Positions 11,224 to 14,639 of a stretch of DNA of 64,000 nt are shown one piece after another. Position numbers and translations under genes: made by a program. Positions within the stretch are counted from its first letter, which is position 1. Every line of letters starts with the position of its first letter. The DNA comes from Aggregatibacter aphrophilus ATCC 33389 (GTDB lineage Bacteria > Pseudomonadota > Gammaproteobacteria > Enterobacterales > Pasteurellaceae): assembly GCF_900636915.1 (NCBI RefSeq), contig NZ_LR134327.1, forward strand, positions 1,736,001 to 1,800,000. The letters run 5' to 3'. The notes below the pieces were generated by a model, which searched no databases, was not told where the DNA came from, and saw only the letters and a list, made by a program, of their open reading frames with translations.

Positions 11224-11354
11224 CAAACGTTTTTAAAACACTCGGTATTATGTAGCAGTTGCACAAAGTCCGAAAATTGACTAATTTACCGCATAAATTT
11301 TCTATTTTTTCAAACTCAAGGTGTAGCTATTCCTCCCAACCTTCATTCAGGTAA

Positions 11355-11596
11355 CCCAAAGTATGAGTCGCCGAGGTAACTGTTGGGATAATGCTCCAAT
11401 GGAGCGTTGGTTCCGCAGCTTTAAATATGAATGGATGCAAGAGGGCGACTATCTAACCTTGGGGCAAGCGATGGACGATGTGAGAGCTTATGTGATGTAT
11501 TACAATTTTGTTCGCCCACATCGTTACAATCAAGGTTTGGCGCCTGTTTTAACAAAAAAAACCTATCGGGGACTGTTGAATTAGCTGATCACTACA
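11355..11596 (+). pseudogene. IS3-family transposase 3' fragment (left copy)
   Basis: This 242-bp remnant encodes the C-terminal integrase core of an IS3-family Orf[18 protein letters not shown], then [15 protein letters not shown], ending GLLN. The upstream two thirds, including the first catalytic Asp residues, are missing. The fragment stops exactly at a CACTACA end, the expected terminus of the IS. It is repeated nearly identically at 14272-14514 in the same orientation, with the same 5' breakpoint. Confidence 0.85.
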
Positions 11597-11804
11597 TTAA
11601 TCAGTAAAAGATAAAAGGGCGAAGATTATTAGAATCTCTGCCCTTAATGTTATCTGCATTTTTACAAAAAATAATATTTTCAATTTTTTGAAAAAAAAGT
11701 GTAAGAAAAAAGGCTTATCTCCGACTAATAGAATAACTAGGAAGCATTTCCTACCATAATGAACTAAATAGTTTCATAAAATAGGTAATCAATCAGAGGA
11801 AAAA

Positions 11805-12260
11805 ATGAAAGATTGTAAGATGCAAGGTATCAGCAGCGGCGTGAGTTTATTGATTTTACGCTTTTTTCTTGCGTGGGAATTTTTAGAGGCAGGGTTAGAA
11901 AAATGGAATGGCCAAAATTGGTTTACTGAAATACAAGATCGTTTTCCTTTTCCATTTAATCTTATTCCAGCCGATATTAATTGGCACGTTGCAATGGGAT
12001 CTGAATTAATTTTCCCATTCTTGCTGATATTTGGGGTGCTAACACGTTTTAGTGCATTAAGTTTAACGATTTTAATCTCTGTCGCGTGGTATAGCATTCA
12101 CGCCGATTCAGGTTATAACGTTTGTGATAATGGTTATAAATTACCCTTAATTTATGTGGTAACTTTATTAATCTTAATTACGCAGGGAGCAGGGAAACTC
12201 TCTTTAGACACGCTTATTAAGAAGGTTTATCCAACTAAAAGCTGGTTGAAATTCCTCTAA
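11805..12260 (+). CDS. DoxX-family membrane protein of the hvf operon
   Basis: A 151-aa membrane protein with four predicted hydrophobic segments (about residues 12-30, 62-82, 85-105 and 118-136) typical of DoxX/DoxD proteins. Family-like positions include LRFFLAWEFLEAGLEKW and the loop GSELIFPFLLIFGVLTRFSAL. DoxX genes commonly accompany MNIO-type RiPP (bufferin) operons; the biochemical role is not established, with a redox or quinone link often proposed. An AGAGGAAAA ribosome site precedes the ATG. hvfA follows after 34 bp, so it is probably the first gene of the operon. Confidence 0.8.
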   Translation: MKDCKMQGISSGVSLLILRFFLAWEFLEAGLEKWNGQNWFTEIQDRFPFPFNLIPADINWHVAMGSELIFPFLLIFGVLTRFSALSLTILISVAWYSIHADSGYNVCDNGYKLPLIYVVTLLILITQGAGKLSLDTLIKKVYPTKSWLKFL

Positions 12261-12294
12261 CTATATATTCAATATCAAATTCTAGGAGATTTAA

Positions 12295-12582
12295 ATGAAA
12301 AAATTATCCACTTTAGCCGCATTAGCAGGAGCATTAACGATGACAGTAGCTACTGTTGCACACGCTGAGCCAAAATCAAGCAGTACAGATAAAGCTGCAA
12401 CACCTTGTGTGGGTGATAAATGTGTGAAAACAAAAGCTGCAGAAGGTAAATGCGGAGAAGGCAAATGTGGCGCAAACGAAACGAAAGCCGCAGAAGGTAA
12501 ATGTGGTGAAGGTAAATGCGGTGCAAGCAAACCAAAAGCTGCAGAAGGTAAATGTGGTGAAGGTAAATGCGGTTCTAAATAA
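12295..12582 (+). CDS. hvfA: HvfA/bufferin-type copper-binding RiPP precursor
   Basis: A 95-aa exported precursor. Residues 1-24 form a signal peptide (cleavage after AHA). The mature part carries six EGKCG motifs arranged as three EGKCGEGKCG pairs (residues 50-59, 67-76 and 84-93), plus two further cysteines (CVGDKC). In H. influenzae HvfA, EGKCG cysteines are converted by the multinuclear iron oxygenase HvfB with HvfC into oxazolone/thioamide groups that bind copper; the same chemistry is inferred here. The next two genes encode those enzymes. The DNA repeats are in phase with the codons, so motif number could change by slippage. Confidence 0.88.
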   Translation: MKKLSTLAALAGALTMTVATVAHAEPKSSSTDKAATPCVGDKCVKTKAAEGKCGEGKCGANETKAAEGKCGEGKCGASKPKAAEGKCGEGKCGSK

Positions 12583-12659
12583 TCGTATTTAAATCTAGAT
12601 GCCATACATAACACTGGTGTAAATTTACGCCAGTGTTGTATTAAAAGGAGTAAATAATT

Positions 12660-13580
12660 ATGTTACAAGGTGCAGGATTAGGGTATCGTCGAGATTTAGC
12701 AGATGATTTTTTGAATTTATCATCAAATAATGCGATTCAGTTTATGGAAATTGCTCCAGAAAATTGGGTAAAAATGGGGGGGGCTGCTCGTTATAAATTT
12801 GATCAGGCAGCGGAAAAATATCCACTTGCGGTACACGGACTATCACTTTCATTAGGCGGGCAAGCACCTCTTGATCGCGAGTTATTAAAAAATACTAAAG
12901 CATTAATGACTCAATATAATTCGACATTTTTTTCTGAACATTTGAGTTATTGTGAATGTGAAGGGCATTTATATGATTTATTACCTATGCCATTTACAGA
13001 AGAAGCTGTAAAACACGTAGCACAGAGAATCCGCTATGTGCAAGATTTTTTAGAATTACAAATTTCATTAGAAAACACCTCTTATTATTTACACTCTCCC
13101 ACCAGCACAATGAATGAAGTAGAATTTTTAAATGCTATTGCACAAGAAGCGGATTGTGGTATTCATTTAGATGTAAATAATATTTATGTAAATGGCGTCA
13201 ATCACGGTTTACTTGATCCTTATGTTTTTTTAGAACAAGTAAATGTGAAACGTGTCAATTACATTCATATTGCCGGACACGACGAAGAACATTCTGCGGC
13301 ACAAGTTGTAGAGGATTTAGAAGGGGAATCATTTAATAAAATAAAAGGGGCATATCGCCATTTACCAGAGTTATTAATTGATACGCACGGTGAGCCAGTA
13401 AAAGGTACTGTGTGGGATTTATTAGAATATGCCTATCAACGACTACCTGTCATTCCGCCAACATTATTAGAGCGTGATTTCAATTTCCCTCCATTTGCAG
13501 AACTTTATGCTGAAGTTGAACATATTGCACAACTACAGCAAAAATATGCTCAAAAAGAGGTGATATCCTATGCAGCCTAA
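12660..13580 (+). CDS. hvfB: MNIO-family (DUF692) RiPP-modifying iron oxygenase HvfB
   Basis: A 306-aa TIM-barrel enzyme of the multinuclear non-heme iron-dependent oxidative family (UPF0276/DUF692). Metal-ligand motifs are all visible: VHGLSLSLG (H59), SEHLSY (E93, H94), SLENTSYY (E138), LDVNNIYVN (D171, N174), NH182, HIAGHDEEH (H203, H207) and DTHGEPV (D241, H243). It is expected to modify cysteines of the adjacent HvfA peptide using Fe(II)/Fe(III) and O2. Its stop overlaps the hvfC start by 11 bp, indicating translational coupling and complex formation. Length is normal for the family. Confidence 0.93.
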
Positions 13581-14283
13581 ACCTTCGCTTATTGAAACAC
13601 AAAAAGCACTTGCCACAGCAGTTCGGTTGGCTCATGCTCAACCTCTAAATGGTTATGCTCCGAATCGCCTTGCTGTTTATGCTCGCTTAGTTCGAAATAA
13701 CATCTTTGGTTTTATTGACCGTTGTTTTGTTGAAGCACCTAAACACGTTTCTGCTGAGAGTTGGTCTCAGACAAAAGAAGCGTTTGTATTAACAGGAAAA
13801 TCACATTCGCCTTATTTTCAAGATATTGCTGGAGAATTTCTCTTATTTTGTCAAGAAAAAGAGAGTTTTGATACCAATATACTGGCATTGATGGATTTTG
13901 AAAATACACAATTACTTGCAGAAGTTTCTTTAGCAAAAGTACCTAAAAAATTTGAGTGGAATAAGCATAGCGTAATGCAGTTATCTGATGCCGCTTATTT
14001 AAAACGCTATGAAGTCGATTTTTTATCAAGCGATTTTAAACAATTTGATGAAAACCCTATACAGGCTGTTATATGGCGGGATAGCGATTTTAATATTCTG
14101 CAACAACGCTTATCTGAACTTGACTTTTGGCTATTAAGTTATATACAAGAACAACCTTCGTCTTTAGAAGAGGTATTATCTGCCTTAAATACTGTAGTTG
14201 AAGATAGCCCCCCCTTAATTCCATTATTGGAAAACACTTGGGTGAATTGGATTAATGCTGAAGTGCTTTATCCCAAAGTATGA
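13570..14283 (+). CDS. hvfC: HvfC/BufC partner protein (DUF2063), 3' end altered by IS remnant
   Basis: A 237-aa protein with an N-terminal DUF2063 domain ([47 protein letters not shown]) and a second, less conserved C-terminal domain. In MNIO systems this partner binds the precursor peptide and presents it to HvfB. The ATG overlaps the end of hvfB. The last codons (encoding PKV) and the stop lie inside the IS3 fragment that begins at 14272, so the native C-terminus was probably replaced by a few IS-derived residues. How many residues were lost cannot be judged here; the gene may still work. Confidence 0.85.
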
Positions 14284-14514
14284 GTCGCCGAGGTAACTGT
14301 TGGGATAATGCCCCAATGGAGCGTTGGTTTCGCAGCTTTAAATATGAATGGATGCAAAGAGGGCGACTATATAACCTTGGGGCAAGCGATGGACGATGTG
14401 AGAGTTTATGTGATGTATTACAATTTTGTTCGCCTACATCGTTACAATCAAGGTTTGCCACCTGTTTTAACAAAAACAACCTATCGGGGACTGTTGAATT
14501 AGCTGATCACTACA
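14272..14514 (+). pseudogene. IS3-family transposase 3' fragment (right copy, frameshifted)
   Basis: A 243-bp direct repeat of the fragment at 11355-11596, with the same 5' breakpoint (CCCAAAGTATG) and the same IS terminus (CACTACA). One extra A in the run after GGATGC shifts the frame, so no continuous product is possible even for this fragment. It overlaps the end of hvfC. Together with the left copy it forms ~240-bp direct repeats around the hvf genes, which could delete them by homologous recombination. Confidence 0.85.
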
Positions 14515-14639
14515 TCCCTATTGAGTTAAAATTTCAATAGGAATTTTAAGGTTTTTAATCGGTTAAACCTTTGTGCAACTGCTACATAATACCGAAAACA
14601 CTACGAAAATCCACCGCACTTTTTTAATAAATGGTCTGG

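Follow-up and report, generated by a model that had tools for sequence, protein, structure and literature searches.

It is already known that IS1595-family elements can carry cargo; members with passenger genes were reportedly described by Siguier and colleagues in 2009. The nearest Pasteurellaceae case that I have seen described is the ISApl4/IS1016 subgroup of this family together with Tn7560 (PMC12561309, in the available part of the text). According to that part, ISApl4 is 712 bp in length, has 14-bp ends (GGGGCTGTACTAGA), encodes a transposase of the 217-amino-acid class and generates A/T-rich 8-bp target duplications. Here, I describe a 3.35-kb cassette in the genome of Aggregatibacter aphrophilus ATCC 33389 (labelled G000), lying in a 64,000-nt stretch which is called the window and in which all coordinates are given. 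The cassette is very probably a non-autonomous IS1595-family transposon, and its cargo is an operon, hvfX-hvfA-hvfB-hvfC, assigned to oxazolin, a copper-binding ribosomally synthesized and post-translationally modified peptide (RiPP) that has been described as a virulence factor of nontypeable Haemophilus influenzae (PMC13419390, as far as its available text goes). The element family of the cassette shares with ISApl4 and Tn7560 an IS1595 DDE transposase, A/T-rich 8-bp duplications and the moving of cargo with IS1595 ends (PMC12561309, same part). Unlike ISApl4, it has 26-bp ends (CGGTATTATGTAGCAGTTGCACAAAG) and zinc-ribbon transposases of about 345-367 amino acids, usually two per element. 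The cargo here lies inside one end pair and not between two whole insertion sequence copies.

The cassette is inserted between the convergent genes dacB and folE, in the middle of an inverted pair of uptake signal sequences (USS). The outer features are as follows.

9742..11184, + strand: dacB, D-Ala-D-Ala carboxypeptidase of family S13, left neighbour (Pfam Peptidase_S13, 1e-161)
11205..11223, no strand: left half of the split USS-pair hairpin (fold of the joined flanks; uninterrupted in 7/8 congeners)
11235..11242, no strand: left copy of the 8-bp target duplication AAAACACT (script check)
11243..11268, + strand: left 26-bp terminal inverted repeat (script check; family-wide end)
11269..11351, no strand: left arm, 83 bp (six element termini match the initial 197 bp of the H. 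parainfluenzae copy)
14516..14568, no strand: right arm, 53 bp (81% identity between the terminal 81 bp of the cassette and the right end of element L257)
14569..14594, − strand: right 26-bp terminal inverted repeat (script check)
14595..14602, no strand: right copy of the target duplication AAAACACT (script check)
14606..14623, no strand: right half of the split USS-pair hairpin (fold of the joined flanks)
14640..15296, − strand: folE, GTP cyclohydrolase I, right neighbour, convergent with dacB (Pfam GTP_cyclohydroI, 1.9e-61)

An earlier note on this DNA had placed the perfect 26-bp inverted repeats, the 8-bp direct repeat outside them and the USS halves, and a script confirmed these positions to the base. 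The note had also claimed that a stem of about 17 bp would re-form on removal of the insert; in the fold prediction, the joined arms give a 19-bp stem of -28.3 kcal/mol, and neither flank folds into the USS stem when the cassette ends are attached. The empty-site check that the note had proposed was run on the printed sequences of the congeners. In seven of the eight, including G004, the end of dacB lies next to folE, and the USS pair between them is uninterrupted; in G008, the eighth, the DNA adjoining folE has no match to the dacB flank. These empty sites and the widely shared 26-bp ends described below bear out the claim that the DoxX-hvfABC segment landed in a USS terminator as one transposition unit. 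When 11100-14800 was scanned for promoters and terminators, there were fewer predictions than in shuffled sequences, and these scans were not used.

The survey set comprised 140 Pasteurellaceae genomes of 43 genera, and the genus set comprised nine Aggregatibacter genomes. With up to three mismatches, the 26-bp end was found in 93 of the 140 genomes and in 33 of the 43 genera, short copies resembling miniature inverted-repeat transposable elements (MITEs) included. The reversed pattern had no match in any of the 140 genomes, which rules out a chance repeat. As the earlier note had suggested looking for, the end is present on other cargo and on transposase-bearing elements. I scored 43 end pairs, taken from regions chosen around listed ends or hvf and from the window; one element (L222), which starts at a contig end, was left out of the duplication counts. 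The 8-bp duplication is exact in 26 of the remaining 42 pairs and has at most one mismatch in 33. A group of 25 end pairs is longer than 1 kb and lacks hvf; 19 came from listed-end regions and six were picked for a common left arm, so that the sample follows the end-listing order and the left-arm matches and is not random, and some of its regions are fragments. The non-hvf elements of this group are 5-10 kb in length. Two IS1595 transposase regions were found in 19 of the 25, one in four and none in two; in 19, the duplication has no more than one mismatch, and 15 of these carry two transposase regions.

The ends of the cassette are identical to those of elements L036 and L038. The two transposases of L036 (367 and 344 amino acids) are 45% identical, both have IS1595 zinc ribbon and DDE domains, and their genes lie near opposite ends of the element, reading outward. 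Nineteen of the 25 elements also contain a small gene, which is of the HTH_3 type in L036, and short accessory genes are found repeatedly beside the ends. In the genus, G006 and G008 have 9.1-kb elements with identical perfect ends, exact 8-bp duplications and two IS1595 transposase genes. A search of the nine genus genomes for relatives of the transposase tA found them in three (G006, G007 and G008) and in neither G000 nor G004; it did detect the second transposases of G006, G007 and G008, which are 42-47% similar. In 330 plasmid records, all matches to tA are below 60% identity, and the other transposase, tB, has two weak matches in a phage collection.

Thus, the cassette has two marks of an IS1595 transposon, namely ends common to transposase-bearing members and an 8-bp target duplication, and it has no transposase gene besides IS3 remnants, an encoded IS1595 transposase being the mark that is missing. 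Since most relatives with the same ends carry a transposase of their own, the cassette may be regarded as a non-autonomous IS1595 derivative. Judging from these relatives, its mover was most likely an IS1595-family transposase. The earlier note had argued against an IS3 mover, which agrees with the IS1595-family transposases encoded between the same ends. An IS5-type mover was also considered, as the inner end TTGCACAAAG partly resembles ends shown in the available part of PMC6382973; it was dropped because most elements with full ends carry IS1595 transposases.

The same end family has small members in the window. A 140-bp diverged end pair at 17530-17669, with six and four mismatches and no matching duplication, lies next to a USS-like sequence and is, by its end sequences, a putative MITE-like relic of the family. 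A lone family end with three mismatches lies at 42431-42456 and is followed by sequence typical of the 142-bp MITE-like copies; family end pairs of about 142 bp occur in Aggregatibacter. Four genomes of the survey (G098, G116, G118 and G123) have 52 to 98 end copies, far above most genomes, perhaps due to MITE-like expansions.

Where else is the cassette found? The hvfB gene is present in three of the nine genus genomes and in 37 of the 140 family genomes. A 221-bp upstream stretch belonging to the cassette itself has a full match, at 97-100%, in seven of the 140: three Aggregatibacter genomes (G000, G004 and G008) and four of the H. parainfluenzae group (G071, G072, G073 and G077). Transposon ends occur at seven of the 30 hvfB loci examined (three in the genus and four among the other 27), which are those of these seven genomes. 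Transposon carriage accounts for hvf in these seven. The other 23 loci have no ends, and thus carriage does not explain the whole distribution of the operon. The examined genomes of H. influenzae, H. haemolyticus and H. quentini have no transposon ends within 14-15 kb around hvf; among seven further hvfB genomes, G055 alone was inspected and no ends were found. The cassettes occupy four loci that differ in their 8-bp duplication, which is exact in all six hvf cassettes with both ends.

G000, A. aphrophilus ATCC 33389, dacB-folE: duplication AAAACACT
G004, A. kilianii PN_528: duplication GATATTTT
G008: duplication AACGTTTT
G071, G073 and G077 (H. parainfluenzae C2006002596), common site of the H. 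parainfluenzae group: duplication CCATTTTA

Empty counterparts of two further sites were seen. At the G004 site, the joined flanks match G000 straight across the junction, where its USS pair is uninterrupted; G000 is one of five relatives examined, of which the remaining four match the joined flanks only in part, and the flank has short matches only in G006, G007 and G008. At the H. parainfluenzae site, the junction is spanned by matches of 78-85% in all seven other genomes of the group, which differ slightly in length there. G000 and G004, whose folE DNA is 98% identical, thus carry the cassette at different loci, and each has the other's site empty. Given this distribution, natural transformation and homologous recombination, aided by the flanking uptake signals, are very unlikely to have been the main route of spread in place of transposition. 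It is true that the cassette lies between two USS in G000, that the four H. parainfluenzae-group genomes have one common site and that the operon of one of them, G077, groups with an end-less allele. However, at least four insertions are required because each of the four loci has its own 8-bp duplication, and such close relatives as G000 and G004 have the cassette at different loci with reciprocal empty sites. Transformation can supplement transposition but cannot replace it.

From sequence identities, the hvf cassette is judged to have crossed genera, because the hvfX-hvfC DNA of G000 is 96.7-98.0% identical to that of the four H. parainfluenzae-group cassettes, while their folE DNA is 76% identical to that of G000 (91% for G008). 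All cassettes are 96.7-99.0% identical to one another over hvfX-hvfC. Identity to the cassettes is 96.5-97.8% for the end-less copies of H. quentini (G065), G060 and H. parainfluenzae C2008003258 (G076), and 83.8-85.1% for the H. influenzae copy of G061. On plasmids, 173 records match the cassette in distant mode, none of them over more than 80% of it; among the 20 plasmid matches listed, the matching pieces are the IS3 remnants or weak hvf similarity. The hvf copy of Actinobacillus ureae ATCC 25976 (G016, locus L150) stands in the operon tree as sister to that of G062, among H. influenzae-type copies, and the 15 kb examined contain no transposon ends. This position suggests either another transfer or assembly contamination.

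Between the ends, the order is left arm, IS3 remnant, hvfX, hvfA, hvfB, hvfC, IS3 remnant and right arm. The inner features are as follows, with hvfB encoding a multinuclear non-heme iron-dependent oxidative (MNIO) enzyme and hvfC a RiPP recognition element (RRE) protein.

11352..11597, + strand: 3′-end remnant of an IS3-family transposase gene, left copy (Pfam rve_3; NCBIfam transpos_IS3, positions 305-366 of 369)
11805..12260, + strand: hvfX, DoxX family membrane protein (Pfam DoxX, 7.9e-22)
12295..12582, + strand: hvfA, precursor with three EGKCGEGKCG units (NCBIfam NF050188, 130.5 bits)
12660..13580, + strand: hvfB, MNIO RiPP maturase (Pfam PF05114, 4.3e-98; NCBIfam HvfB, 374.9 bits)
13570..14283, + strand: hvfC, RRE partner protein (NCBIfam RiPP_RRE_HvfC, positions 1-236 of 237)
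14269..14515, + strand: 3′-end remnant of an IS3-family transposase gene, right copy, frame broken (alignment to the left copy)

The earlier note had called this a bufferin (hvf) operon. DoxX genes adjoin bufferin genes. Bufferin operons (bufA-B-C) likewise encode an MNIO enzyme, a partner protein and a precursor that binds copper and has a Sec signal peptide (PMC12452194, in its available part). However, HvfA, HvfB and HvfC pass their own NCBIfam cut-offs (NF050188, 130.5 bits against 95; NF003818, 374.9 against 360; NF050145, 164 against 142), and HvfB fails that of the bufferin maturase BufB (259.1 against 310 bits). Thus, by profile scores, the predicted product class is oxazolin (HvfA) and not bufferin proper. 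The available text of PMC13419390 describes the same gene order hvfX-A-B-C, three EGKCGEGKCG units and the HvfB/HvfC pair in nontypeable H. influenzae, where the cysteines of HvfA are converted to copper-binding thiooxazoles. Unlike that operon, the G000 operon is a transposon passenger. In alignments, HvfA of the G004 and G008 copies has one EGKCGEGKCG unit fewer than that of G000. HvfC ends in LYPKV, because hvfC runs into the right IS3 remnant, and its nearest relatives outside the cassette end in LYPKEG.

The two IS3 remnants were absent from the earlier account. They are about 246 bp each, in direct orientation and 96% identical to one another; they begin at the same IS3 position and are present in all seven hvf cassettes. 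The common start position points to a single truncated IS3 copy that would have been duplicated during capture. Was hvf instead moved or circularised by an IS3-type composite unit, the 26-bp repeats belonging to an older surrounding element? Two remnants with the same IS3 start do flank the operon, and they may explain the capture of hvf. However, the 5′ end and most of the transposase are missing from both (positions 305-366 of 369 remain in the NCBIfam match), and they travel inside the unit at all four loci. The cassette lacks the marks of an IS3 composite transposon, namely two copies with functional ends and 3-5 bp duplications at those ends. An IS3 composite origin was therefore discarded as extremely unlikely, given that the duplications are 8 bp long and enclose the 26-bp repeats, and that no more of IS3 is present than 3′ remnants of about 246 bp.

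What does this vehicle usually carry? Restriction-modification (R-M) genes were found in 21 of the 25 non-hvf elements and in 17 of the 19 whose duplication has no more than one mismatch; 18 of the calls are direct Pfam or PADLOC matches, and three (L038, L213 and L215) were made by clustering with these. Types I, II, IIG and III are represented, with AlwI, Eco57I, BpuSI and EcoRI methylase matches and a PADLOC type II helicase in L218. The elements without R-M genes carry AAA_14/DUF4143 (L207), a YadA-type adhesin (L221), a subtilase (L223) or unassigned cargo (L254); L221 and L223 have no target duplication. Across L208-L222 and L252-L258, many unrelated R-M systems occupy the same central position in the element.

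The arms of the cassette are akin to those of these transposase-bearing elements. Over its first 197 bp, the H. parainfluenzae cassette is 93-98% identical to the termini of six complete elements (L252-L255, L257 and L258), and the match stops at about the start of the IS3 remnant. Five of the six termini adjoin a transposase gene slightly closer to tA than to tB, and five of the six elements carry R-M genes, the exception being L254. The left arm of the Aggregatibacter copies is about 85 bp shorter than that of the H. parainfluenzae copy. Since the arm matches end at the IS3 remnant, the interior of an R-M-type transposon was probably replaced by IS3 remnant-hvf-IS3 remnant. If so, a metal-handling trait took over a vehicle that mostly carries defence (restriction) genes.

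The proposed mechanism may be put as follows. The two terminal arms, each a 26-bp inverted repeat with subterminal sequence, would derive from a larger Pasteurellaceae transposon whose interior consisted of two IS1595 transposases, a small helix-turn-helix gene and, usually, R-M cargo. I infer that this interior was swapped for hvfX-hvfA-hvfB-hvfC between two IS3 3′-end remnants. The IS1595 transposase of a full-length relative would then act in trans on the 26-bp ends of the cassette, and the G000 copy would be immobile unless a transposase is supplied. Insertion would occur with an 8-bp duplication into A/T-rich DNA, often in the middle of a USS-pair terminator hairpin, and the cargo would confer copper handling on the new host.

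Several observations weigh against this account. The link between the transposases and the ends is one of co-occurrence. Five of the 25 elements (L208, L209, L211, L221 and L223) have no duplication and may be mispaired. In G008, the sole Aggregatibacter genome with both the cassette and a full element, the tA frame has two stop codons; the frame of the second transposase is open. The right arm matches other elements over a shorter stretch and more weakly than the left (81 bp of L257 at 81%). No sequence outside the cassettes in the 140 genomes matches the segment upstream of hvfX that spans 11598 to about 11680. G072 has the same flanks as the rest of the H. parainfluenzae group but has lost the left cassette end. 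In the hvf operon tree, the cassettes do not form one clade and three label changes are needed, two of them forced by the starred branches; the G077 operon groups with the end-less G076 copy. This grouping and the non-monophyly of the cassettes suggest that homologous recombination acted too. Thus, the tree makes it likely both that the operon was captured from a Haemophilus locus and that it later recombined with that locus.

Two kinds of element, MITEs and mobile insertion cassettes, also serve for comparison. Like both of these (for MITEs, MITEAba12 in the available part of PMC6382973), the hvf cassette is non-autonomous and has ends in common with a transposase-bearing relative. Unlike them, it carries a full four-gene biosynthetic operon and occurs in two genera. 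In the literature searched, from which subscription papers were mostly absent so that this is weak evidence of absence, no hvf or bufferin operon is described as carried by a transposon, and no paper mentions both HvfB and transpos. The available part of PMC12452194 contains no mention of transpos, mobile, plasmid or horizontal. The cassette suggests that a RiPP copper-metallophore operon, which encodes a virulence factor in H. influenzae (PMC13419390, available text), moves between genera as a transposon passenger. The family with two unlike transposases and, in the copies examined, mostly R-M cargo may help to explain the spread of R-M systems in Pasteurellaceae.

Finally, the insertion sites of the element family were analysed. 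The target set consisted of 37 sites with a duplication of at most one mismatch, the common H. parainfluenzae site being counted once and one orthologous pair being kept. The background of 14508 intergenic positions comes from the same loci and is not independent, so that small p-values are a guide only. Sites were scored with the motif that I take to be the USS. A USS core lies within 60 bp of 29 of the 37 sites and of 2397 of the 14508 intergenic positions (16.5%), and 17 of the 37 sites lie between an inverted USS pair, compared with 227 of 14508 (1.6%). For elements longer than 1 kb alone, the counts are 16 of 23 for the core and 10 of 23 for the inverted pair. With one orthologue dropped, perfect inverted arms of at least 10 bp surround 20 of 36 sites and 76 of 2160 background positions. 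Against A/T-matched intergenic positions, the inverted pair is found at 19 of 36 sites and at 1.1-4.1% of the background; this count uses a USS variant (AGAGCGGT) that was added after seeing two sites, and the figure of 17 of 37 does not. Since the insertions of the family are enriched in USS hairpins, the phrase "neutral landing site" of the earlier note may be an understatement.

The enrichment could also reflect purifying selection, in which insertions into terminators survive, rather than targeting by the transposase; I regard this as possible but rather doubt it. Other landings do occur: by a mechanical call, 29 of the 37 sites are intergenic and eight are inside open frames of at least 100 codons, and the H. 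parainfluenzae hvf insertion interrupts a gene. However, the enrichment persists against intergenic and A/T-matched intergenic positions, which are presumably about as neutral. The gene interrupted by the H. parainfluenzae cassette (5362-8797 of locus L138, G071) encodes a small methionine-rich repeat protein whose frame is open in G076 (L299), and it adjoins a sigma factor gene (Sigma70_r2 and r4).

The preference for USS hairpins offers a testable link between transposition and natural competence. More tentatively, a Pasteurellaceae-wide family with two IS1595 transposases might specialise in R-M cargo and prefer USS-pair hairpins, so that its cargo becomes bracketed by USS and is preferentially taken up by competent relatives. 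Transposition would then be coupled to transformation, and the oxazolin cassette would be a hijacked version that spreads copper handling likewise. None of the papers searched was found to describe RiPP operon cargo, the two-transposase R-M layout or a preference for USS hairpins. A locus of G001 (L308), found as a match to the left flank of the G004 site, has an end relic (CAACAGCTACATAATCGCG) between the USS pair. As this relic lies at the position of the G004 insertion, one and the same terminator may have been hit twice by the element family.

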